DNA of 11,201 nucleotides from Aquamicrobium sp. (GTDB lineage: Bacteria > Pseudomonadota > Alphaproteobacteria > Rhizobiales > Rhizobiaceae). Below the pieces are notes generated by a model. The model worked only from the letters and a program-made list of their open reading frames with translations. It did not search any database and was not told where the DNA came from. The position numbers and the translations under genes were made by a program. Position 1 is the first letter of the stretch; each line of letters starts with the position of its first letter. Where the stretch lies: contig JACZJD010000526.1 in the NCBI GenBank assembly GCA_014860725.1, positions 1-11,201 of the forward strand, written 5' to 3'. This document shows, in pieces, positions 1,301-11,201 of this stretch.

Positions 1301-2335
1301 ATGACGAACAAGGCATCGGCAAAGGCAAGGGGCATCTCCCGGCGCAGGTTCATCGGCGCGGCCGGCGCGCTGGGCGTGGCGGCAACGGCGGGCGGCGTGC
1401 TGTCGCGGCCGCTCAGGAGCCACGCGACCGCCGGCAACCCGACCAAGATCCGCCTGTCGTGGACCGAGTTCGCCGCCTGCCACTCTCCGGTGGCCTACGG
1501 CGTCTCCGAGGGCGTCTATGCCAGGCACGGCCTCGACGTCGAGCTGTTCTATCAGGGGTCGAGCGGCCAGACGCTGATCCAGTCCATCGCCACCGACAAG
1601 ACCGACGCCGGCGCCGGCCTGCTCTACGACTGGGTGAAGCCGCTGGAGCAGGGGCTCGACGTCAAGCTGTTCGTCGGCTCGCATGGCGGCTGCACTCGGC
1701 TTCTCGCCTCGAAGTCCTCCGGCATCGAGAAGCTCGAGGACCTGAAGGGCCGGAAGATCGCCTCCTACGACGTCGCCAGCCCACCCAAGCATTCCTTCCA
1801 GGTGGCGCTGGCCAAGGCCGGGCTCGACCCCGAGCGCGACGTCGAATGGCTGAACGTGCCGTTCGACCTCGTCGGCGAGGTGGTCGGGCGCGGCGAGGCC
1901 GATGCGCTCGCGCATCTCGACCCGTGGGCCTACGCCCACAAGAAGAAGTTCGATCTCCACGAGGTCTACAACACCCAGAGCGGCGTCTTCGACGGCGCGG
2001 TGTGCTGCGTGCTCGGGGTCAACGCGAATTTCCTCGAGGCCAACCGCGACGCGGTGCGCCGGCTGGCCGAGGCCAATATCGAGCTGCACGAGTTCGCCGC
2101 CGCCAATCCCGACAAGGTCGCGGACTGGTTCGTCAAGAACCTCAACCCCGGCTTCCCGCTGGAGGACATCCACGACAACATCGCCTCGTGGGACCTTCAC
2201 AACCACCCGGTCGGCAAGGAGCTGGTCGATCAGGTCGAATGGGCGGCGGACGACCTCGCGCTGATCAAGGTGCTCGATCCGACGACCAACAGCCGCGAGC
2301 TCGCCGAGCGCGTCACCATCGACATCCTGGCCTGA
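1301..2335 (+). CDS. Tat-exported ABC transporter substrate-binding protein, NMT1/SsuA type
   Basis: This is a 344-residue periplasmic binding protein that would deliver a small solute to the permease encoded downstream. The N-terminus has a twin-arginine motif (SRRRFIG, residues 13-19), an Ala/Gly-rich hydrophobic stretch (19-34) and a likely cleavage site near residues 42-44, so export of the folded protein by the Tat system is predicted. The mature part has the NMT1/THI5-SsuA layout: a binding lobe with GVYARHGLDVEL (71-82) and a mid-domain LEDLKGRKI (145-153). Cysteines occur at 60 (AACHSP), 131 (HGGC) and 235-236 (VCC), which is unusual for this class. A good ribosome-binding site, AAGGAAGG (1283-1290), precedes the ATG by 10 bases. 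The family is usually annotated for nitrate, sulfonate, taurine or pyrimidine precursors. A sulfur ligand is suggested by the upstream sulfhydrylase gene but is not shown. Confidence 0.9.
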   Translation: MTNKASAKARGISRRRFIGAAGALGVAATAGGVLSRPLRSHATAGNPTKIRLSWTEFAACHSPVAYGVSEGVYARHGLDVELFYQGSSGQTLIQSIATDKTDAGAGLLYDWVKPLEQGLDVKLFVGSHGGCTRLLASKSSGIEKLEDLKGRKIASYDVASPPKHSFQVALAKAGLDPERDVEWLNVPFDLVGEVVGRGEADALAHLDPWAYAHKKKFDLHEVYNTQSGVFDGAVCCVLGVNANFLEANRDAVRRLAEANIELHEFAAANPDKVADWFVKNLNPGFPLEDIHDNIASWDLHNHPVGKELVDQVEWAADDLALIKVLDPTTNSRELAERVTIDILA

Positions 2336-2349
2336 GGCGGGGGACGCCG

Positions 2350-3354
2350 GTGAGCGCGTTGACGGAAACCGGCGCGGCGGGCGGCGGCTACGCCTCGCCC
2401 GCCGTCGGGCAGAGGCTGTGGCGGCCGGGCCTCTATGCGGCCGGAACCTGGCTGCTCGCGGCCGCCGTCACCGTCTTCCTGCCCGACCTCATCCCGTGGG
2501 GCAGCCGCGACGTCTTCGTGGGATTGCTCCTCGCCGGCGCCGCTGTCTTCGCGCTGCTCGCCTTCGGCATCGACAGGCTCGGCCGCTCGCGCGACGCCGT
2601 CGCCTATTACGGCCCGTGGATGATCGCGCTCGGCGTCTGGTTCGCGCTGTGGGAGCTGGTGACGGCCAAGCTCGGCTGGCTGCCGAAACCGTTCTTCTCG
2701 CCGCCGCACGGGCTGCTCCACGTCTATATCGTCGACTGGGAGCGCATCGCGATCTGCATCGCCTATACGGCGCGGCTGTGGACGCTCGGCTTCTTCTCCG
2801 GCATCGCCGTCGGCTTCGTGATCGGCGTCGGCCTCGGCTGGTCGAAGGTGTTTTCCTACTGGGGCATGCCGCTCCTGAAGCTGATCGGTCCGGTGCCGGC
2901 GAGCGCCTGGATTCCGGCGACCTTCTTCCTGTTCCCCTCGACCTTCCAGGCCTCGATCTTCCTCGTCGCGCTCGCCTCCGGCATTCCGGTCGCGATTCTG
3001 ACCGCCTCGGGCGTCAATCAGGTCAACCGCGCCTATTACGACGTCGCGCGCACGCTGGGCGCCGACAGCCGCTTCCTGATCCTGCGCGTGGCCATCCCGG
3101 CGGCGCTGCCCAACGTCTTCGTCGGCCTGTTCATGGGGCTCTATTATTCCTTCGCCGTGCTGGTGGTGGCCGAGATGCTAGGGGCGAAATACGGCCTCGG
3201 CTGGTATCTCCAGTTCCAGACCGCCTATTCGGCCTACGCCAACGTCTACGCCATGCTCATCATCATGGCGCTCCTGTGCTCCGGGCTGGTCAAGCTCTTG
3301 TTCGTGGTGCGCGACCGCGTGCTCGCCTGGCAGAAGGGGGTGGTGCAATGGTAG
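2350..3354 (+). CDS. ABC transporter permease, SsuC/TauC-like with N-terminal extension
   Basis: This is a 334-residue inner-membrane permease of the binding-protein-dependent (BPD) type. The core has the family EAA-type cytoplasmic loop for contact with the ATPase (about residues 231-257, DVARTLGADSRFLILRVAIP then AALPN). The core helices run at about 87-107, 144-165, 188-220, 255-280 and 297-320. Two further hydrophobic segments (about 27-49 and 55-77) precede the core, making the protein some 70-80 residues longer than a usual SsuC (about 260). The GTG start at 2350 is chosen because it lies 14 bases after the binding-protein stop, has GGGGGA (2339-2344) 5 bases upstream, and begins a short hydrophilic leader before the first helix. 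The frame stays open far upstream, but that part overlaps the binding-protein gene and reads as Arg/Ala-rich shadow. The gene overlaps the ATPase gene by 7 bases. Confidence 0.9.
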   Translation: MSALTETGAAGGGYASPAVGQRLWRPGLYAAGTWLLAAAVTVFLPDLIPWGSRDVFVGLLLAGAAVFALLAFGIDRLGRSRDAVAYYGPWMIALGVWFALWELVTAKLGWLPKPFFSPPHGLLHVYIVDWERIAICIAYTARLWTLGFFSGIAVGFVIGVGLGWSKVFSYWGMPLLKLIGPVPASAWIPATFFLFPSTFQASIFLVALASGIPVAILTASGVNQVNRAYYDVARTLGADSRFLILRVAIPAALPNVFVGLFMGLYYSFAVLVVAEMLGAKYGLGWYLQFQTAYSAYANVYAMLIIMALLCSGLVKLLFVVRDRVLAWQKGVVQW

Positions 3355-4136
3355 CCGCGGCCGCCGTCGGGCCGGCCGAGGTTGCCGCCGGCCTTGCGCT
3401 CTCCTTCCGCGCCGTCTCCCACGAGTTCCGGCTCGACGGCAGGCCGCTGCCGGTTCTGGAAGCCATCGACCTCGACGTCGCGCCGGGCGATTTCGTCGCC
3501 CTGCTCGGGCCGTCGGGCTGCGGCAAGTCCACGCTGCTGCGGCTCGCCGCCGGGCTCGACGCGCCGGCGTCGGGGGCGGTGCTGGCCGACGAAGCCGCCA
3601 TTGCCGGACCGGACCCGTCGCGGGTGCTGGTGTTTCAGGACCCGACACTGTTTCCCTGGCGCAGCGTGCGCGACAACATCGCGGCCGGGCCGCAGGCGCG
3701 CGGCATCGCGGGAAAGGCGCAGGCGCGGATCGACGCCGCGCTCGACCTCGTCGGGCTCGCCGACTTCGCCGCCGCCTATCCGCACCAGCTTTCCGGCGGC
3801 ATGGCGCAGCGGGCGGCGTTGGCCCGTGCGCTGGTCAACGACCCGCGCCTGCTGCTGCTCGACGAGCCGCTGGGCAAGCTCGACTCGCTGACGCGGCTCG
3901 CCATGCAGGACGAGCTTCTGAAGCTATGGCAGCGGGCCGGCTACACCGCGCTTCTCGTTACCCACGATGTCGAGGAGGCGCTGCTGCTCGCCAACCGGGT
4001 GATCGTGCTCAGCGACCGGCCGGCCCGGATCAAGGCCGACCTGACCATCGACCTGCCGCATCCGCGCCGCCGCGACGGTGCGGAGATCGTGCGGCTGCGC
4101 CACGACATCCTCGCCATCATGGGATACGGCGAATGA
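3348..4136 (+). CDS. ABC transporter ATP-binding protein, SsuB/TauB-like
   Basis: This 262-residue ATPase drives the transporter formed with the permease and binding protein. All nucleotide-binding elements are intact: Walker A GPSGCGKST (54-62), Q-loop VFQDP (Gln97), signature LSGGMAQR (148-155), Walker B LLLLDEP (168-174), a D-loop-like GKLDSLTR (177-184) and the switch histidine in THD (His206). LFPWRSVRDN after the Q-loop is characteristic of the nitrate/sulfonate/taurine importer subgroup. The ATG at 3348 overlaps the permease stop (ATGGTAG) and has AAGGGGG (3334-3340) 7 bases upstream. The frame continues open for hundreds of bases upstream inside the permease gene, but that part is a shadow. 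The 3' end overlaps the next small gene by ATGA, consistent with translational coupling. The ligand cannot be inferred from the ATPase. Confidence 0.93.
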   Translation: MVAAAAVGPAEVAAGLALSFRAVSHEFRLDGRPLPVLEAIDLDVAPGDFVALLGPSGCGKSTLLRLAAGLDAPASGAVLADEAAIAGPDPSRVLVFQDPTLFPWRSVRDNIAAGPQARGIAGKAQARIDAALDLVGLADFAAAYPHQLSGGMAQRAALARALVNDPRLLLLDEPLGKLDSLTRLAMQDELLKLWQRAGYTALLVTHDVEEALLLANRVIVLSDRPARIKADLTIDLPHPRRRDGAEIVRLRHDILAIMGYGE

Positions 4137-4447
4137 GGACGGCCGCGTCCCTCCTGCCGCGCTCGCTCAGGGCGCTGGAGGTGCTCGGCGTCGCGCTCGT
4201 CGGCGTCGCCGTCCTGTGGTGGGCCATCGTCTACGGACAGGTGATCGCCAACACCGGCATGGCGCCGCAGCGCACCTTGCCCTGCCTGCTCCGCACCTCC
4301 GACCTGTGCTCGCTGGCCATGTCGCTGTGCAAGGAATGGCATTTCCTCGGCATCAGGCGCTATTCGGCGGAGCTGTTCTGGATCGGCGCGGGCGTGTGCC
4401 TAGTGTCGGCGGGCGGCGCATTCGTGCTGAGGCCGCGGGCGAGATAG
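4133..4447 (+). CDS. Small two-helix membrane protein with cysteine-rich loop, function unknown
   Basis: This 104-residue protein is not recognised as a named family. The ATG lies inside the stop of the ATPase gene (ATGA), so it is probably translated by coupling; no strong separate ribosome-binding site is visible. Two hydrophobic helices are apparent, at about residues 15-35 and 80-99. They are separated by a 45-residue loop containing Cys51, Cys59 and Cys66 within CLLRTSDLCSLAMSLC; Cys89 lies in the second helix. Arg10 and Arg13 before helix 1 and RPRAR at the C-terminus suggest both ends are cytoplasmic and the cysteine loop periplasmic. A cysteine-bearing periplasmic loop next to a cysteine-bearing binding protein suggests an accessory transporter subunit or a thiol/metal-handling partner. 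That role is inference from position only. Confidence 0.75.
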   Translation: MRTAASLLPRSLRALEVLGVALVGVAVLWWAIVYGQVIANTGMAPQRTLPCLLRTSDLCSLAMSLCKEWHFLGIRRYSAELFWIGAGVCLVSAGGAFVLRPRAR

Positions 4448-4571: not shown

Positions 4572-5408
4572 ATGGCAGGGCAGACGCTTCCGGAATTCGA
4601 CAATCTGCGGGTTTCGGTCGCCGGTGCCCGGGCCGATATCGTGCTGGCCCGGCCGGAGAAGCTCAACCCGCTCGACTGGACGACGGTGCGGTCGCTGAAG
4701 GCGGCCTCCCGGGCGCTCGAAGCCATGGACGACGTCCGCGTCGTGGTGATCCGCGGATCGGGCAAGGCGTTCTCGGCGGGGGGCGACCTCCAGGGCTATC
4801 TCGACCTCTACGCAGCGCCGGAGCGGTTCTCCGCCTTCCTCGAGGATTTCCGCGAGCTGCTGTGCGGCATCGAGCGGTCGCGCAAGGTCTATGTCGCGGC
4901 GGTCGACGGCGTGTGCGTCGCGGGCGGGCTGGAGCTGCTGCTGGCATGCGACCTTGCCGTCGCCGCGGCGCAGGCCCGCATCGGCGACGGGCATCTGAAT
5001 TTCGGCCAGCTTCCCGGCGCTGGCGGGTCGCAGCGCCTGCCGCGCGCCATCGGCGCCATGCGGGCGCGGGAGCTGATCTTCACCGGCCGGCTGGTCGATG
5101 CGGACGAGGCGTTGCGTCTCGGGCTCGTCGTCGCGGTCGCGCCCGAAGGCGGGCTCGACCAAGCCGTCGATGCGCTTGTCGCATCCATGCTCGCCCACGG
5201 CGCGCGCGGCCTTGCCGGTGCCAAGCGGCTGGTCAACGAAGGGCTTGCCATGCCGCTCGACGAGGCGCTGCGCTTCGAGATCGGCCTGGTGCACGCCTAT
5301 GCCACGGGCGATCCCGACGCCATGGAGGGACTGGCCGCCTTTGGCGACAAGCGGCCGCCGCGGCTGAGCGACACGCTCGCGCCGCCTTGCGGCGGAAAAG
5401 GGGGGTGA
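4572..5408 (+). CDS. Enoyl-CoA hydratase/isomerase family (crotonase fold) protein
   Basis: This 278-residue cytoplasmic enzyme acts on an acyl-CoA thioester, most likely hydrating or isomerising an enoyl-CoA. The oxyanion-hole elements are clear: GKAFSAGGDL (64-73) and VCVAGGLELLLACDLAVAA (114-132). GQLPGAGGSQRLPRAIG (145-161) is the conserved segment after the active site. Compared with rat mitochondrial enoyl-CoA hydratase, the first catalytic glutamate (E144) is kept as Glu121, but the second (E164) aligns with His141 in IGDGHLNFG. The protein may therefore be an isomerase, hydrolase, lyase or specialised hydratase. The C-terminal tail, rich in Gly/Pro (LAPPCGGKGG), is encoded by a GC hairpin and looks non-essential. 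The gene heads the operon behind a strong ribosome-binding site; the next gene starts 5 bases after its stop. Fold assignment is sure, reaction is not. Confidence 0.9.
   Translation: MAGQTLPEFDNLRVSVAGARADIVLARPEKLNPLDWTTVRSLKAASRALEAMDDVRVVVIRGSGKAFSAGGDLQGYLDLYAAPERFSAFLEDFRELLCGIERSRKVYVAAVDGVCVAGGLELLLACDLAVAAAQARIGDGHLNFGQLPGAGGSQRLPRAIGAMRARELIFTGRLVDADEALRLGLVVAVAPEGGLDQAVDALVASMLAHGARGLAGAKRLVNEGLAMPLDEALRFEIGLVHAYATGDPDAMEGLAAFGDKRPPRLSDTLAPPCGGKGG
5380..5394. repeat. GC-rich stem-loop inside the 3' end of the crotonase gene
   Basis: CGCCGC (5380-5385) and GCGGCG (5389-5394) form a perfect 6-base-pair stem with a CTT loop, followed by GAAAAGGGGGG that also provides the purine-rich site before the next ATG at 5414. 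It could be a copy of a short dispersed palindrome or an element tuning translation of the next gene. Only one copy is seen here, so the repeat reading is an inference. Confidence 0.4.
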
Positions 5409-5413
5409 CCGCC

Positions 5414-6577
5414 ATGTGGGCGCTGCGCGACAGATACGCACTGGCGGGCATCGGGGCGACGGAGTACCGCAAGGCCTCCGGCCGCACCATCCTCGCCCAG
5501 GCGGTGGAAGCCTGCGACAGGGCGCTCGCCGATGCCGGCCTGCCGCGCGAGGCGGTGGACGGCATCGTCAGCTTCCAGTTCCGCGATTCCGCGCCGGCGA
5601 TGGCCGTGGCGACGGCCATGGGCCTTCCCGCCGCCCATCACTGCGTCGACTACGAGGCCGGCGGCAACGGCGCCAACCTCATCATCCTCGCGGCCATCGC
5701 CGCGATAGAGGCGGGCCTCGCCACCAACGTCCTGTGCTTCCGGGCCATGAACGGGCGTTCCGGCTTCCGGCTCGGCGGCGGCCGCGACATGGTGGCGCGC
5801 GGGGTTTCCCAATACACCGCACCGTTCGGCTGGATCACCTATCCGCAGGCGATGGCGATGTGGTGCCGCCGCCACATGAACCGCTACGGCACCACCAGCG
5901 AGCAGCTCGGCCGGGTCGCCGTCGATATCCGCGCCCATGCGCTCGACAATCCGCGCGCCATGATGCGTATGCCGCTGACGCTCGACGATCATCAGGCCTC
6001 GCGCCTGATCGTCGATCCGTTCCGCATCTACGACATCTGTCTCGAAACCGACGGGGCCTGCGCGGTCCTCGTCACCTCGACCGAACGCGCGAAGGACCTG
6101 CGTAAACCGCCCGTGCTCGTCACAGCCGGCGTCTATGGCGGCGGGCCGGCCCAGGGCGACGACCTGTTCGACGCCATGCGCTGGCCCGACCATTCGCAGA
6201 ACTTCCTCGCTTATGTCGGCGACGAGCTGTGGCGCCGCGCCGGCCTCGGCCCCGCCGACGTCGATATCGCCGAGATCTACGACTGCTTCACCTACAGCGT
6301 GCTGATGGCGCTCGAAGGGCTGGGCTTCAGCCGGCCGGGCGAGGCGGCCGGCTTCGTCGAGGACGGCGGCATCCGCCGCGACGGCGGCCGGCTTCCCGTC
6401 AACACCCATGGCGGGCTGCTGTCCGAGGCCTATATCCACGGCCTCAACCATGTCTGCGAGGCGGTGGAGCAGCTGCGCGGCGATGCCGGCCCGCGGCAGG
6501 TCGAGGGCGCGCAGGTGGCCGTGACCACTGCCGGCGCGATGACGTGCGGCAGCGCGCTGGTCCTGAGGGCGGCATGA
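5414..6577 (+). CDS. Thiolase-fold protein, SCP2/Ltp2-like (probable acyl-CoA retro-aldolase subunit)
   Basis: This 387-residue protein belongs to the non-decarboxylating thiolase superfamily, lipid-transfer (SCP2-thiolase/Ltp) branch. Recognisable parts are the N-terminal AGIGATEYRK (11-20), EIYDCFTYSVLMALEGLGF (287-305), NTHGGLLSEAYIHG (330-343) with His332 and Tyr340, and the C-terminal MTCGSALVL (376-384). The nucleophilic cysteine of true thiolases, normally in a C-[AS]-S-G context, is absent: the segment reads VDYEAGGNGANL (78-89), with Glu81 at the cysteine position. This is expected for Ltp2-type aldolases of steroid side-chain degradation, which work with a DUF35 partner and cleave beta-hydroxyacyl-CoAs by retro-aldol chemistry. 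A DUF35 gene follows directly, overlapping by ATGA. An automated tool would probably call it acetyl-CoA acetyltransferase. Fold and partner are well supported; aldolase activity is inferred. Confidence 0.88.
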   Translation: MWALRDRYALAGIGATEYRKASGRTILAQAVEACDRALADAGLPREAVDGIVSFQFRDSAPAMAVATAMGLPAAHHCVDYEAGGNGANLIILAAIAAIEAGLATNVLCFRAMNGRSGFRLGGGRDMVARGVSQYTAPFGWITYPQAMAMWCRRHMNRYGTTSEQLGRVAVDIRAHALDNPRAMMRMPLTLDDHQASRLIVDPFRIYDICLETDGACAVLVTSTERAKDLRKPPVLVTAGVYGGGPAQGDDLFDAMRWPDHSQNFLAYVGDELWRRAGLGPADVDIAEIYDCFTYSVLMALEGLGFSRPGEAAGFVEDGGIRRDGGRLPVNTHGGLLSEAYIHGLNHVCEAVEQLRGDAGPRQVEGAQVAVTTAGAMTCGSALVLRAA

Positions 6578-7029
6578 TGGACGACGCATTCTCCGCCCTG
6601 CGCCCGCAGCCGCAGCCCGACCCGGACTCCGCGCCGTTCTGGGAGGGGCTGGCCGAAGGCCGGCTGCTGCTGCAGCAATGCATTGCCTGCGCCCGCCACC
6701 GCTTTCCTCCGGCCGAGACCTGCCCGCACTGCCGCAGCGCCGAGGCGGAATGGCAGCCCGCCGCCGGCACGGGGCGCGTCTATAGCTGGATCGTGGTGCG
6801 CCATCCAATTCCGGCGGAGGTCTTCGCGGCCGAGGTTCCGTATGTCGTGGCGCTGATCGATCTCGACGAAGGCGTGCGCATCGTCTCCAATCTCGTCGGG
6901 ATCGAGCCGGAAGCGGTGCGCGACGGCATGCCGGTGCGCGTCGTCTTCCGCGACGGCGGCGGGCGCGTGCTGCACGCCTTCCGCCCGGAGGAGGGCACCG
7001 CAGCAACCGCAGCAGGGGGAAAGACGTGA
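6574..7029 (+). CDS. Zn-ribbon/OB-fold (DUF35) acyl-CoA-associated protein
   Basis: This 151-residue protein has the DUF35 architecture: an N-terminal helix (PFWEGLAEGRLLLQQC, about 21-36), a rubredoxin-like zinc ribbon with Cys36, Cys39, Cys50 and Cys53 (CxxC-x10-CxxC), and an OB-fold domain starting at about residue 64 (GRVYSWIVVRHPI). All four zinc ligands are intact. Proteins of this class bind thiolase-fold partners and help hold the CoA substrate, as ChsH2-DUF35 does for Ltp2 in actinobacterial cholesterol degradation. The ATG at 6574 overlaps the stop of the thiolase-fold gene; a second ATG follows at once at 6577. The C-terminus ends in a low-complexity Ala/Thr/Gly tail (TAATAAGGKT) encoded by a short CCGCAGCA direct repeat. 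The gene overlaps the next by GTGA. Function as the partner subunit is inferred from order and overlap. Confidence 0.9.
   Translation: MMDDAFSALRPQPQPDPDSAPFWEGLAEGRLLLQQCIACARHRFPPAETCPHCRSAEAEWQPAAGTGRVYSWIVVRHPIPAEVFAAEVPYVVALIDLDEGVRIVSNLVGIEPEAVRDGMPVRVVFRDGGGRVLHAFRPEEGTAATAAGGKT
7014..7020 (+). promoter_or_regulatory. Ribosome-binding site supporting the GTG start at 7026
   Basis: AGGGGGA ends 5 bases before GTG at 7026. This supports the GTG over the downstream ATG codons at 7077 and 7086, which lack a comparable site. Confidence 0.55.
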
Positions 7030-8459
7030 TCGCCGAAGGGATCGAGGCCGCGCAGGCTTCGGCCATACTCGACCGTATGGGCCGCATGACGCGCGAGGAA
7101 CTGCTCGCGCTGCAGTTCGCCAAGCTGAAGCGGCAGCTCGACCGCCTCTACCACACCAACGCCTTCTATCGCGCCAGGCTCGACGCGGCCGGCGCGCAGC
7201 CGGAGCGCATCCGCTCCATGCACGACTTCCGCGAGCTGGTGCCGCTCTCCACCAAGGCCGAGTTCCTCGCCGACCAGGAGGAGCACCCGCCCTTCGGCCT
7301 CAGGGTCGGCGTGCCGCACGGCGAGATCGCGCTCGTCAACATGACCGGCGGCACCTCGGGGCAGGGGCAGGAAGTCTACGGCCGCACCTATGCCGACATC
7401 GTGGTGCAGGGCTATCTCCACGGCCTGCCCTGGTTCATGGCCGGCCTGCGGCCGGGACATTTCGCCATGAACTGCGTGCCGGCCGGCGGGCTGACCACCG
7501 GCGGCTGGGGGCCGCCCGAGGGCTTCCGCATCGCCGGTGCGGCTGCCATCCATGTCGGCGGTGCGATGACCACCGACGCCAAGATCGCGATGATGCGGCG
7601 GTTTCCCAACGTCAACTTCATCTACGCCTCCACCAACTATGTGATGACGCTCGCCGAGGGGATGCGCCGGGCGGGGATCGATCCCAGGGAAGCGTTTCCG
7701 CGCCTGAAGACGATCTTCCTCGTCGCCGAGGGCTATTCGCTCGAATGGGCGGAGCGGATGAAGGAGTTCTGGGGCGCGGCCCTGCACGAGGGCTACGGTT
7801 CGACCCAGGCGGCGGGCTTCTCCCACGTCACCTGCCGTCACGGCGTGGCGACGCCGGACGGCCGCCGCGCCATGATGCACGCGCTCGAATGGCACACGCT
7901 GATCGAGATCATCGACCCGGAGACCGGCGCGCCGGCCGAACCGGGCGAGGAAGGCGAGATCGTCGTCACCAATCTCGACATCGTCGGCGCGCCGGTGCTG
8001 CGCTTCTCCAGCCGCGACAAGGCGCGCTACCTGCCGCACCACGCCTGCTCTTGCGGACGGCCGTGGGACGGGATCGAGACCGGCACCATCGGCCGCTACG
8101 ACGACATGATGAAGATCCGCGGCAACAATGTCTGGCCGGCCGCGGTGGACGCCGCCGTCTTCGCCTTCGCCGAGGTCGAGGAATATTCCGGCCGCGTCTT
8201 CGTCGACGATGCCGGGCGCACCGACGTCGAGGTGATGGTGGCGCTGACGCCGGAGGGCGAAAGCCTCTCCGCCGACGACAGGGCGGCGCTGACGGCGCGG
8301 ATCGCCGAGAAGATCAAGGAAAGGACCAATGTGCGCATGTCGATCCGCCCGATGAGGCGGGAGGACCTGCCCAGCTTCGCCTACAAGGCGAGGCGCTGGC
8401 GCGACGAGCGCCAGGAGGGCTACAGCCGGCTCGCGCGCGGGGACGGGAAGGGAGGATGA
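7026..8459 (+). CDS. Phenylacetate-CoA ligase-like (PaaK-family) adenylate-forming CoA ligase
   Basis: This 477-residue enzyme should activate a carboxylic acid to its CoA thioester via an acyl-adenylate. PaaK-family features are present in order: an N-terminal region with LKRQLDRLYHTNAFYRARLD (34-53), the Gly/Thr-rich phosphate-binding motif NMTGGTSGQGQ (105-115), the A5-type EGYGSTQ (255-261), a CSCGRPW cysteine pair, the hinge motif GRYDDMMKIRGNNVWP (356-371), and a C-terminal FAYKARRW whose Lys454 may be the catalytic lysine. PaaK-type enzymes favour aryl or arylacetic acids, but related clades take alicyclic and terpenoid acids, so the substrate is open. The GTG start overlaps the DUF35 stop (GTGA) and is supported by a ribosome-binding site; an ATG at 7077 would shorten the N-terminus by 17 residues. 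It probably supplies the CoA ester used by the enzymes encoded upstream. Confidence 0.9.
   Translation: MIAEGIEAAQASAILDRMGRMTREELLALQFAKLKRQLDRLYHTNAFYRARLDAAGAQPERIRSMHDFRELVPLSTKAEFLADQEEHPPFGLRVGVPHGEIALVNMTGGTSGQGQEVYGRTYADIVVQGYLHGLPWFMAGLRPGHFAMNCVPAGGLTTGGWGPPEGFRIAGAAAIHVGGAMTTDAKIAMMRRFPNVNFIYASTNYVMTLAEGMRRAGIDPREAFPRLKTIFLVAEGYSLEWAERMKEFWGAALHEGYGSTQAAGFSHVTCRHGVATPDGRRAMMHALEWHTLIEIIDPETGAPAEPGEEGEIVVTNLDIVGAPVLRFSSRDKARYLPHHACSCGRPWDGIETGTIGRYDDMMKIRGNNVWPAAVDAAVFAFAEVEEYSGRVFVDDAGRTDVEVMVALTPEGESLSADDRAALTARIAEKIKERTNVRMSIRPMRREDLPSFAYKARRWRDERQEGYSRLARGDGKGG
8448..8455 (+). promoter_or_regulatory. Ribosome-binding site deciding the start of the 66-residue gene
   Basis: AAGGGAGG ends directly before an ATG at 8456, too close to serve it, but 6 bases before the ATG at 8462. 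This favours 8462 as the start. The site lies inside the 3' end of the CoA ligase gene. Confidence 0.6.
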
Positions 8460-8461
8460 GG

Positions 8462-8662
8462 ATGGAGATTGCCGAGATTGCCGCCGCTGCGCGACGGATC
8501 AGGACGGATGCGGCGGCCATCGCCGCGGCCGGCGACCAGCTTCTGGTCGGCCAGGCGATCCAGATCGGCCGGCTCGCCGAGTGGATCGAGGAAATGGCGT
8601 CGATCCCGCTCGGCCTGACGCCGGACGAGCGGCGCAGCGGAGCGCCGGAGATCGGACGATGA
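8462..8662 (+). CDS. Small alpha-helical protein of unknown function (66 aa)
   Basis: This small gene fills the space between the CoA ligase and the first short-chain dehydrogenase. I do not recognise the protein. It is 66 residues long, with no cysteine, no membrane segment and no signal peptide. Residues 2-47 look like one or two amphipathic helices rich in Ala, Ile and Arg/Glu (ends with RLAEWIEEMASIPLG), followed by a charged tail. Reality is supported by a well-placed AAGGGAGG, tight packing with the ligase stop, and an ATGA overlap with the next gene, leaving no spare bases. An alternative start at 8456 would add two residues and overlap the ligase stop. A small partner or chaperone of a neighbouring enzyme is possible, but this is a guess from position. 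Confidence 0.65.
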   Translation: MEIAEIAAAARRIRTDAAAIAAAGDQLLVGQAIQIGRLAEWIEEMASIPLGLTPDERRSGAPEIGR

Positions 8663-9435
8663 GCGGCCGGCTGGACGGGATGACGGCGCTCGTCACGGGC
8701 GCGGCGTCGGGCATCGGCAAGGCGACGGCCGAGCGCTTCGTCGCGGAGGGGGCGAACGTCGTCCTCGCCGACATCAACGAGGCCGCCGGCGCGCCACTTG
8801 CCGACGGGCTCGGCCCGCGCGCCCGCTTCGTGCGCGTCGATCACAACGACCGGGCGCAGATCCGTGCGGCGGTCGCGGCCGCGCTCGACGCCTTCGGCGC
8901 GCTCGACACTGTGGTCGCCAATGCCGGCGTGTCGTTCGCCGGCTCCGTCGACAGCGCCGACGATGCGGTGCTGGAGCGCGTCATCGGCAACAATCTCGTC
9001 GCCCAGTTCAAGGTGGCGCAGGAGGCGCTGCCCGCGCTTCGCGAGCGGGTGAAGGGCCGGCATCTTCAGGTGTCGATCCTGTTCACCGCCTCGCTCCAGA
9101 GCCTCAAGGCCAAGCCCAACTTCAGCGTCTACACCGCGTCCAAGCACGGCGTGATCGGCATGGTGCGCTCGCTGGCGCTCGAGCTCGCGCCGGCCGGCAT
9201 CCGCGTCAACGGGGTGTGCCCGACCGTCACCGACACGCCTTTGCTGCGCGAGTTCACGGTGGCGATGGCCGACGACGAGGAGGAGGCGATGCGCCGCTTC
9301 CGCGCCACCGTGCCCCTCGGCGTGATGGCCGAGCCGCGCGACGTGGCCGCGGCCTTCGCCTTCCTGGCCTCGCCGGACGCCCGGATGATCACCGGCCATG
9401 CCCTGACCGTGGACGGCGGCCAGATGGCCATGTAG
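8659..9435 (+). CDS. Short-chain dehydrogenase/reductase (classical SDR, likely NAD-dependent)
   Basis: This 258-residue cytoplasmic oxidoreductase has a complete classical SDR set: dinucleotide-binding TGAASGIG (13-20), NAG (88-90), Asn111/112, and catalytic Ser145, Tyr158 and Lys162 (YTASK). An acidic residue at the end of strand 2 (Asp38 in VVLADIN) predicts NAD(H) preference, which suits an oxidative step such as oxidation of a hydroxyacyl-CoA or of an alcohol released by cleavage. The C-terminal ALTVDGGQ (248-255) is standard for the family. The ATG overlaps the stop of the 66-residue gene (ATGA) and GGAG (8647-8650) lies 8 bases upstream. The segment HLQVSILFTASLQSLKAK before the active-site tyrosine is somewhat unusual. 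The substrate is not identifiable; FabG-like or 3-hydroxyacyl-CoA dehydrogenase labels are equally possible. Confidence 0.9.
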   Translation: MSGRLDGMTALVTGAASGIGKATAERFVAEGANVVLADINEAAGAPLADGLGPRARFVRVDHNDRAQIRAAVAAALDAFGALDTVVANAGVSFAGSVDSADDAVLERVIGNNLVAQFKVAQEALPALRERVKGRHLQVSILFTASLQSLKAKPNFSVYTASKHGVIGMVRSLALELAPAGIRVNGVCPTVTDTPLLREFTVAMADDEEEAMRRFRATVPLGVMAEPRDVAAAFAFLASPDARMITGHALTVDGGQMAM

Positions 9436-9443: not shown

Positions 9444-9450
9444 CATGGTC

Positions 9451-10218
9451 ATGGAGGGACCGTCGTTCAGGCTGGACGGGCAGGTCGCGCTGGTCACGGG
9501 CGCGGGCGGCGGCCTCGGCCGGCTCGCCTGCCTCGCCTATGCCGCGGCCGGGGCGTCGGTCGCCGCATCCGGCCGCGACCGCGCCAAGCTCGAGGAAACC
9601 GCGGCGCAGGTGCGCGCGGCGGGCGGCCGGGCGGAGATCGTCGTGGCCGACCTCGAGGAGAAGGGCGGCGCGCAGGCGATGGCCGACCAGACGCTCGACC
9701 GCTACGGCCGGATCGACGTGCTCCTCAACAATGCCGGCATCATGCTCGCCAAGCCGTTCATGGATTCGACGCCCGAGGAGTGGGCCCGGGTCATCGACGT
9801 CAACGTGCTCGGCGTCGCCTCCTGCTGCCGCGCCGTCATCCCCGCGATGATCGAACGCGGGCAGGGCAGCATCGTCATGATGGGGTCGATCCTGTCGCTG
9901 CGGGCCTTCGCCAACCGCAGCGCCTACGGCGTGTCGAAGGCGGGCGTCGCCAGCCTCGCCAAGGCGCTGGCCTTCGAGCTCGGCCCACACGGCATCACCG
10001 TCAACACCGTGGCGCCGACGGTGATCGAGACCGACCTCAACCGCGACCTCATCAGGACCCAGCCGCATCTCTACGACGGCGTGCTGCGCCGCACCGCGCT
10101 CGGCCGTCTCGGCGTTCCCGAGGACCTTGCGGGCCTGCTGGTGTTCCTCGCCTCGCCCGCCTCGCGCTACGTGACGGGGCAGGTGATCGGCGTCGACGGC
10201 GGCTTCCTCGCCTCCTGA
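9451..10218 (+). CDS. Short-chain dehydrogenase/reductase (classical SDR, possibly NADP-dependent)
   Basis: This is a 255-residue classical SDR, last gene of the + strand operon. Motifs are TGAGGGLG (17-24), NNAG (93-96), Asn119 in DVNVLG, and catalytic Ser146, Tyr159 and Lys163 (YGVSK). After strand 2 it reads AASGRDR (38-44), with Arg42 and no acidic residue, a pattern often linked to NADP(H). It may therefore run in the opposite redox direction to the SDR encoded upstream. The end VIGVDGGF (245-252) is typical. I chose ATG 9451 from ribosome-binding-site spacing; ATG 9445 would add Met-Val. The gene follows the first SDR by 15 bases. Its stop lies 6 bases from the stop of the converging gene. 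Sequence identity to the first SDR looks moderate, so a recent duplication is unlikely. Substrate unknown. Confidence 0.9.
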   Translation: MEGPSFRLDGQVALVTGAGGGLGRLACLAYAAAGASVAASGRDRAKLEETAAQVRAAGGRAEIVVADLEEKGGAQAMADQTLDRYGRIDVLLNNAGIMLAKPFMDSTPEEWARVIDVNVLGVASCCRAVIPAMIERGQGSIVMMGSILSLRAFANRSAYGVSKAGVASLAKALAFELGPHGITVNTVAPTVIETDLNRDLIRTQPHLYDGVLRRTALGRLGVPEDLAGLLVFLASPASRYVTGQVIGVDGGFLAS

Positions 10219-10224
10219 ACCCGA

Positions 10225-10986
10225 TCACAGCGCCGGCCACACGCCTCCGGAGACGGCGAGGATCTCGCCCGTCACGTAGGAGGATTCGTCGCTGGCGAAG
10301 AACAGCACGGCATTGGCGATGTCGCGCGGCTCGCCGAGCCGCTTGAGCAGCGGCTTGGCGGCGTAGTGCTCTAGCTCGTCCGCGCCGAGCCGGTCGAGAA
10401 CGCGCGTGCGGATGGTGCCCGGCGCGATGCAGTTGACCGTGACGTGCGGCGCAAGCTCCATCGCCAGCGTGCGCGTGAAGGAGGCGACGGCCGCCTTGGC
10501 CGCGCCGTAGTCGGAGCTGCCCGTCTCGCCGGCAAAGTTGATCGACGTCACGTTGACGATGCGGCCGGCGCCGCGCTCGACCATGCCGGGCGCGATGCGC
10601 TGGACGAGATGGAAGTTCGGCTTGAGGTTGAGGGCGAAGGTCGCGTCCCAGCGGCTTTCGCTCATGGTCAGGAACGGCTCGAACAGCGTCTGCGCGCGGA
10701 TGCCGCCGACGATGTTGGCGAGGACGTCGACCCGGCCGAACCGTTCGAGCGCGGCCTCGGCGAAGGCGGCGGCCTCGCCGGCGACGGTGAGGTCGCCGCG
10801 CACGGCCACGACACGCTTCTCGTCGCCGAGGATTTCCGCGAGCCACCCGGCGGTCTGGTCGAGCCGGCTCTGCGAGATGTCGCTGATCGCGACGCTCGCC
10901 CCTTCCTCGGCCAGCCGCTCGGCGACGGCCCCGCCCATCGGGCCGCCGGCGCCGGTGACCATGGCGATCTTTCCTTCGAGCCTCAT
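10225..10986 (-). CDS. Short-chain dehydrogenase/reductase on the converging strand
   Basis: This is a 253-residue SDR read leftward. It has a glycine-rich loop TGAGGPMGG (11-19), Asp36 after strand 2 (NAD preference likely), Asn120, Ser148, Tyr160 and Lys164 (YGAAK). Two features are atypical: the usual NNAG is replaced by ANIVGG (90-95), and the Ser-to-Tyr spacing is 12 rather than 13. The catalytic set is still complete, so activity is expected. The ATG at 10986-10984 overlaps the stop of the acyl-CoA synthetase gene on the same strand (ATGA), and a purine-rich GGAGGAGAGAG precedes it. The frame is open further upstream, but that part is an Arg-rich shadow overlapping the synthetase. It probably oxidises or reduces an intermediate of the acid activated by the synthetase; no specific substrate can be assigned. 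Confidence 0.9.
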   Translation of the reverse strand: MRLEGKIAMVTGAGGPMGGAVAERLAEEGASVAISDISQSRLDQTAGWLAEILGDEKRVVAVRGDLTVAGEAAAFAEAALERFGRVDVLANIVGGIRAQTLFEPFLTMSESRWDATFALNLKPNFHLVQRIAPGMVERGAGRIVNVTSINFAGETGSSDYGAAKAAVASFTRTLAMELAPHVTVNCIAPGTIRTRVLDRLGADELEHYAAKPLLKRLGEPRDIANAVLFFASDESSYVTGEILAVSGGVWPAL

Positions 10987-11201
10987 GCGCTCTCTCCTCC
11001 CTGTCGCGTCGGCTGCGCCTCGGCGGCGGCGCGTATCGCCTCCACCGCCTCGGGGTTGACGAGCGCGGAGAGGTCGCCCTGCGCCTCGCCGGTGAGGACG
11101 GCGCGAATGACGCGGCGCATCGTCTTCATGTTGCGGGTCTTGGGCAGGTCCGGCACGCACAGCACCCGCTCGGGCCGGAAGGCGCGGCCGAAGCCTTGCG
11201 C
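10983..11201 (-). CDS. AMP-forming acyl-CoA synthetase, C-terminal end only
   Basis: Only the last 72 residues are inside the window; the frame enters from the right edge. The visible part is the C-terminal subdomain of acetyl-CoA synthetase-like enzymes: RAFRPERVLCVPDLPKTRN followed by MKTMRRVIR, where the Lys at about visible residue 26 corresponds to the catalytic A10 lysine. The usual SGK is NMK here, as in some acyl-CoA synthetases related to acetoacetyl-CoA synthetase. The tail GDLSALVNPEAVEAIR is typical of this group in alphaproteobacteria. The true start is outside the window; the GTG at 11165 is internal. The stop overlaps the SDR start by ATGA, so the two genes are coupled. It is a second acid-activating enzyme beside the PaaK-like ligase. 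The substrate cannot be judged from this fragment. Confidence 0.85.
   Translation of the reverse strand, partial: AQGFGRAFRPERVLCVPDLPKTRNMKTMRRVIRAVLTGEAQGDLSALVNPEAVEAIRAAAEAQPTRQGGESA

Follow-up and report, generated by a model that had tools for sequence, protein, structure and literature searches.

The 11,201-base stretch of Aquamicrobium sp. DNA analysed here (contig JACZJD010000526.1; 70% G+C; hereafter the window) carries a run of plus-strand genes, among them one for a thiolase-fold protein of 387 residues and, directly after it, one for a standalone DUF35 protein. The thiolase-fold protein belongs to a distinct subfamily of Ltp2-like aldolases in which glycine stands in place of the thiolase nucleophile. 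The best explanation of the whole is that it probably acts with DUF35 as a retro-aldolase of the Ltp2/Sal kind, fed by a coenzyme A (CoA) ligase, an acyl-CoA dehydrogenase and a crotonase. A preliminary description of the sequence had proposed a retro-aldolase, a reading supported by the fold, the phylogeny, the active-site residues and the pairing with a DUF35 gene in 53 of 53 related loci, with activity as a prediction. The features that carry this reading are the following:

5414..6577, plus strand: thiolase-fold protein, 387 residues, Ltp2-like aldolase of a distinct subfamily (ATG at 5414, TGA at 6577)
5663..5665, plus strand: codon of Gly84, at the position of the thiolase nucleophilic Cys by alignment, same column as Gly89 of Sal
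6278..6286, plus strand: Tyr289-Asp290-Cys291, with Tyr aligned to the base of Ltp2 (Tyr294) and of Sal (Tyr302) and Cys to Cys304 of Sal (roles from the available excerpt of PMC12329534)
6401..6415, plus strand: NTHGG motif, from residue 330, by alignment
6431..6433, plus strand: Tyr340, aligned with Tyr344, the proposed catalytic acid of Ltp2 (Gln352 in Sal)
6574..7029, plus strand: standalone DUF35 protein (zinc ribbon and OB fold), 151 residues (ATG at 6574, TGA at 7029)
6679..6732, plus strand: DUF35 Cys36, Cys39, Cys50 and Cys53, an intact C4 zinc motif read from the sequence

Active-site residues

As the preliminary description had noted, the segment VDYEAGGNG (from residue 78) occupies the place of the nucleophile motif, and alignment with a true SCP2-thiolase (6hsj) puts Gly84 in the nucleophilic Cys column. 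Residues were counted over 177 family rows (171 distinct), comprising the window protein, 120 homologues among the matches listed, all 53 loci and three plasmid copies. Gly84, Tyr289, Asp290, Cys291, Phe292 and Tyr340 are invariant in all 177 rows, Cys378 is kept in 173 (Val or Thr in the other four), and His332 varies in 18. Loss of the nucleophile is normal for this branch: it is missing from 46 of the 50 rows of the tree alignment, and the four rows that have it cluster with SCP2-thiolase. Membership among the thiolases or acetyl-CoA acetyltransferases was rejected because the nucleophilic Cys is absent. The earlier warning against the latter label was justified, as relatives are frequently annotated as acetyl-CoA acetyltransferase in public records and the glycine occupies the nucleophile column throughout.

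The stretches EIYDCFTY (from residue 287) and NTHGG are present as first described; the idea that a thiolase motif has simply been kept did not hold, as Ltp2 reads YDHF and Sal YDCY at the first of these places, which makes the Cys of YDCF informative. Ltp2 uses Tyr294 as base and Tyr344 as acid, whereas Sal requires Tyr302 and Cys304 and has Gln352 standing for Tyr344 of Ltp2 (PMC12329534; this and the other papers given by PMC number are cited from available excerpts). The window protein holds Tyr289, Cys291 and Tyr340 together, and thus counterparts from both active sites. The CoA-binding Arg216 and Lys19 of Sal are retained as Arg197 and Lys20.

Phylogeny, fold and DUF35 pairing

At E <= 1e-40, 4261 proteins match the 387-residue protein (of 7995 candidates scored). 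Among solved structures, the Ltp2-ChsH2(DUF35) aldolase is the closest in sequence as well as in fold, followed by 4u4e and Sal; for the window protein, the fold is that of a predicted structure of the single aldolase chain, which used 79 sequences (an earlier prediction with 23 close sequences had a pLDDT of 72). In the tree, the family forms a distinct clade (support 100/100) beside the Ltp2-type aldolases, with Sal and the true thiolases outside. The preliminary description had named a placement with thiolases that have a relocated active cysteine as evidence to the contrary; the tree sets the protein apart from the thiolases with the Cys. In fold, missing nucleophile, base Tyr and DUF35 gene partner, the window pair agrees with the broad group of thiolase-fold, DUF35-dependent retro-aldolases.

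The same description had reported an overlap with an intact DUF35 gene, and this was confirmed. The aldolase and DUF35 genes overlap by 4 nucleotides, as do DUF35 and the ligase gene that follows, and the four cysteines of DUF35 form a C-x2-C-x10-C-x2-C pattern. The protein consists of zinc-ribbon and OB domains only and is encoded separately. Related loci (n = 53; 64-71% identity) were collected by scanning one genome per species for exact matches to peptide patterns from the window protein, and the sample is therefore biased to close kin. The DUF35 gene comes after the aldolase gene in all 53, and all four zinc cysteines are retained in 40 and at least two lost in 13. Together with the 4261 homologues, this consistent pairing argues that the arrangement of a Cys-less aldolase with DUF35 is not due to chance.

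The conserved cassette and its surroundings

The aldolase and DUF35 genes lie within a larger cassette, in which a crotonase-family gene comes first and a PaaK-like ligase and two short-chain dehydrogenases (SDRs) follow:

4572..5408, plus strand: crotonase-family protein, 278 residues, first gene of the conserved cassette
4932-4934, plus strand: crotonase Glu121, kept by alignment
4992..4994, plus strand: crotonase His141, in place of the second catalytic Glu of enoyl-CoA hydratases by alignment
7026..8459, plus strand: PaaK-like acyl/aryl-CoA ligase, 477 residues, GTG start overlapping the DUF35 stop
8659..9435, plus strand: first SDR of the cassette (SDR1)
9445..10218, plus strand: second SDR of the cassette (SDR2)
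1301..4136, plus strand: SsuA/NMT1-type ABC importer, upstream of the cassette (binding protein 1301-2335, permease 2350-3354, ATPase 3348-4136)

A crotonase gene was found upstream of the aldolase in 44 of 52 loci under a distance filter, and five of the eight misses (L011, L012, L014, L029 and L033) do have one adjacent. A same-strand PaaK-like ligase is present in 38 of 50 loci, SDR2 in 31 of 45 and SDR1 in 16 of 45. Enoyl-CoA hydratases use two catalytic Glu residues. The first is kept in 42 of the 43 aligned cassette crotonases (the remaining row is cut off there), and the second is His in all 43, as it is in 120 of 120 crotonase homologues among the matches listed, which partly overlap with the 43 rows. 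The cassette crotonase may catalyse hydration, isomerisation or hydrolysis.

Recurring neighbours, in the part of the neighbour families that was annotated, include GntR regulators, APH-type phosphotransferases, acyl-CoA dehydrogenases and Liv-type importers; in Stella vacuolata, two acyl-CoA dehydrogenases and two more crotonases stand immediately upstream. No aldehyde dehydrogenase occurs among the annotated neighbour genes of the loci, apart from a plasmid copy in Sphingopyxis macrogoltabida. A single aldolase copy (64-71% identity) was present in each of ten genomes inspected, with further paralogues at 44% or less. The aldolase-DUF35 pair occurs across Alpha- and Betaproteobacteria and in one Rokubacteria bin, from soil, groundwater and sea according to record titles, so its substrate is probably a common one.

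Plasmid-borne cassettes were seen in Novosphingobium (pABRDHK22; L097), Bosea (pB32-2; L098) and Sphingopyxis macrogoltabida (L099), the last adjoining cytochrome P450, ferredoxin and aldehyde dehydrogenase genes. The ABC importer of the window is not conserved beside the cassette: neither its binding protein nor its permease occurs at any of the 53 loci, and the ATPase occurs at one, distant and 42% identical. A functional role for the importer was therefore set aside. Following the ATPase of the window, a protein of 104 residues with no Pfam match is encoded at 4133-4447. On the minus strand, an SDR gene (10225-10986) faces the cassette. Ahead of it lies the last part of a protein (10989-11201) which we take to resemble acyl-CoA synthetases from its motif LPKTRNMKTMRR. 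A possible identity of the cassette with the indole-3-acetate iad locus was dropped, the literature search having given nothing usable.

A Sphingomonadales/Caulobacterales branch with degenerate DUF35

The 13 loci in which DUF35 has lost at least two zinc cysteines (L017, L019, L020, L026, L027, L029, L030, L035, L037, L038, L042, L045 and L048) make up one Sphingomonadales/Caulobacterales clade (support 100/97), which corresponds to a single loss there. An IpdA orthologue (E < 1e-95) is present in all 13 of these genomes and in 2 of 37 others (50 of the 53 genomes tested; Fisher 3e-10, uncorrected for kinship), that is, in 15 of 50 overall. One family draw of 199 genomes held IpdA in 23 and the cassette aldolase in four, all within the 23 (Fisher 1.4e-4; 1.2e-3 without the centre genome). 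In six Sphingomonadales loci, IpdA lies on the same strand upstream of the cassette, with an IpdC-like NMO, an acyl-CoA dehydrogenase and a ligase, and the entire run from IpdA to the cassette is annotated on the Novosphingobium plasmid. IpdA identity was checked for one member against 6con (5.8e-72). A KshA-like Rieske protein occurs in six loci, partly other than the six with IpdA (one member tested: 4qdc, 5e-41).

Two IpdA paralogues per genome were observed in G007, G024 and G005 (loci L035, L019 and L027), a hint of a second HIP-type pathway. In S. colocasiae and Sphingopyxis BIN8, one of the two IpdA copies sits on the same contig as the cassette; in C. estronivorus, neither does.

According to the available part of a review, bile-acid degrading Sphingomonadaceae are without known side-chain aldolases (PMC8399759); the excerpt on Caenibius grown on cholate reports no induced Sal candidate (PMC12882949), and that on the N. 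tardaugens estrogen cluster describes its own ChsH2-like and lipid-transfer genes (PMC7793797). No claim is made that the present clade fills any of these gaps.

Proposed reaction and alternatives

In the proposed scheme, the PaaK-like ligase would activate an acid, which the crotonase and an acyl-CoA dehydrogenase, the latter seen at some of the loci, would turn into a beta-hydroxyacyl-CoA. Tyr289 would then remove the proton from the beta-hydroxyl, the C-C bond would break, and the resulting CoA enolate would receive a proton from either Cys291 or Tyr340. The products would be a carbonyl compound and acetyl- or propionyl-CoA. DUF35 would complete and stabilise the active complex, and the carbonyl product, if a ketone, would be handled by the SDRs. 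A ketone is more likely than an aldehyde: it would fit the Ltp2-like Tyr and the SDRs, and the annotated neighbours, with one plasmid locus excepted, include no aldehyde dehydrogenase. From the gene neighbours, a cyclic or branched acyl-CoA that gives a ketone would fit best as substrate.

Several observations weigh against this interpretation. The activity of the clade is so far a prediction for every member, and the Sal residues with assigned roles Gln161, Asn162, Gln347 and Gly391 are not conserved in the window protein. The near-invariance of Cys378 leaves some room for a cysteine-based reaction. The cassette crotonase is without one hydratase Glu, which makes the step forming the beta-hydroxyl unsure; moreover, at three Bosea-type loci the aldolase has no crotonase of this type as a neighbour, and the Bosea plasmid has FadB-like and MaoC-like genes nearby in its place. 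Finally, the aldehyde dehydrogenase near the Sphingopyxis plasmid member runs contrary to a ketone-only view.

Among the alternatives, a Sal-like cleavage survives best, although we consider it somewhat doubtful: a Tyr/Cys dyad would release an aldehyde and Tyr340 would be non-catalytic. The YDC sequence is indeed common to the window family, Sal (YDCY) and TbSLP (YDCF), but Tyr340 is invariant where Sal has Gln352, the clade is closer to Ltp2 than to Sal, and the annotated neighbours, save those of the Sphingopyxis plasmid copy, include no aldehyde dehydrogenase.

As a more speculative variant of the retro-aldolase reading, and one we would advance only tentatively, the family could be a third, general aldolase type that combines the Cys of Sal with the Tyr of Ltp2 and is fed by a dedicated Glu/His crotonase. 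It would act on side chains, alicyclic or aromatic, in which the beta carbon is part of a ring, and Sphingomonadales and Caulobacterales would later have taken it up, along with a DUF35 free of zinc, for a second polycyclic pathway of the IpdAB type. The reaction of the family may be, for example, the cleavage of a (1-hydroxycycloalkyl)acetyl-CoA to a cyclic ketone and acetyl-CoA. The cyclohexylacetate pathway includes a (1-hydroxycyclohexyl)acetyl-CoA lyase; a search of open-licence PMC papers listed none with that gene in its title or at the start of its abstract.

A steroid side-chain or ring aldolase like Ltp2 or Sal, in a host that degrades steroids, is an unlikely description of the window pair. 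The same-strand run of IpdA, IpdC-like NMO and acyl-CoA dehydrogenase in six Sphingomonadales loci, the Rieske proteins and the family draw, in which every genome with the cassette aldolase also had IpdA, speak for such a role. The window, however, has an intact C4 DUF35 without IpdA- or Rieske-type neighbours, and the neighbours are different again at the Stella, Bosea, Pseudolabrys and betaproteobacterial loci. A purely steroid role was set aside because IpdA was found in just 15 of the 50 genomes.

It is still less probable that the protein is a C-C bond-forming or thiolytic enzyme with a relocated Cys nucleophile, either Cys378 in the C-terminal loop or Cys291. Both are widely kept (173 and 177 of 177 rows), and true thiolases and acylases are likewise known with DUF35 partners (6esq, 7pxp and 5m3k). 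Glycine is nevertheless fixed at the original nucleophile column, Cys378 is replaced in four rows, Cys291 aligns with Cys304 of Sal, reported to be an acid and not a nucleophile (PMC12329534), and tree and fold place the protein with Ltp2. That the pair acts as a decarboxylase, or binds acyl-CoA as a non-catalytic subunit, is very improbable: TbSLP, also YDCF, has weak malonyl-CoA decarboxylase activity, but Sal was negative for it in the excerpt available (PMC12329534), and the aldolase residues of the window family are fully invariant.

Novelty and implications

What is new is a proteobacterial cassette of crotonase, aldolase and DUF35, to which a PaaK-like ligase and SDRs are often added; in every aligned member, His replaces one catalytic Glu of the crotonase. 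Also new is one Sphingomonadales/Caulobacterales clade of IpdA-bearing genomes in which DUF35 is without its zinc site. No description of clade or cassette was found in the open-licence PMC literature, a scope that mostly leaves out subscription papers and gives no proof of absence. A gene type of soil and water bacteria that often bears the label acetyl-CoA acetyltransferase most likely encodes an enzyme that breaks a carbon chain instead of joining one, with a small zinc protein partner encoded next to it, and the current naming leads to pathways being reconstructed with the wrong reaction. Both described active sites are united in the clade, so single mutants offer a way to decide between Cys and Tyr as the residue that protonates the enolate, and the branch with lost zinc cysteines offers a natural test of the function of the DUF35 zinc site.

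Comparison with known systems

The nearest solved relative, Ltp2-ChsH2(DUF35) of Thermomonospora curvata (6ok1), is a steroid C3 side-chain aldolase. Its base Tyr294 and acid Tyr344 are matched in the same columns by Tyr289 and Tyr340, whereas its YDHF motif, with an oxyanion His, is YDCF in all 177 family rows. Its DUF35 forms one domain of ChsH2, a MaoC hydratase; in the window, DUF35 is a separate gene and a crotonase gene lies upstream of the aldolase. The window protein scores below the Ltp2 cut-off of PRK07855 (363.8 of 469 bits) and falls outside the Ltp2 clade, so that tree, motif and score rule out a plain Ltp2 orthologue. The Ltp2 of Comamonas is 61-64% identical to actinobacterial Ltp2 (PMC12502768).

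Sal-Shy(DUF35) of Comamonas testosteroni (9myr), a bile acid C5 side-chain aldolase, is 30% identical to the window protein, and its Tyr302 and Cys304 are matched by Tyr289 and Cys291 in the same columns. The columns of Sal Gln347 and Gln352 hold Leu335 and Tyr340, and these Gln positions and the tree exclude a Sal orthologue. The partner Shy includes a MaoC domain, and its zinc site is of the C3H1 type, in contrast to the C4 site of the window DUF35. The putative thiolase 4u4e of Sphaerobacter thermophilus falls outside the clade of Ltp2 and the window family. The benzoylsuccinyl-CoA thiolase BbsAB (7pxp) also combines a thiolase fold with a separate DUF35 subunit, but identity with it was rejected, as the window pair lies far under the NCBIfam cut-offs (100.6 of 750 bits for BbsB and 36 of 250 for BbsA).

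The ibuprofen genes of pIBU218 comprise a ring dioxygenase, IpfD, IpfE (DUF35) and a CoA ligase (names matched by gene order with PMC9195938). In the available excerpt, the IpfDE step is called a retro-aldolase and also an "ipfDE-encoded thiolase", and it acts on a non-steroid acyl-CoA (PMC9195938). IpfD shares with the window protein the Gly for Cys (aligned through 4u4e), a separate DUF35 gene and a CoA ligase in the same gene run; it is 35% identical over 368 residues, reads YDAF, and is not orthologous. IpfDE acts after a ring dioxygenase in the ibuprofen upper pathway, and IpfF and the window ligase gave no match at E 1e-3. Besides the DUF35 proteins of the 13 loci above, IpfE too is without its CxxC zinc motif, so loss of the DUF35 zinc site may have occurred more than once. 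Besides the IpfD/IpfE region (1621-6783 of L100), pIBU218 carries a second, Ltp2-type copy (YDHF, 42%) adjoining another DUF35. With IpfDE as precedent for non-steroid use, the pairing of aldolase and DUF35 is as a kind already known, and the window pair is a variant of it.
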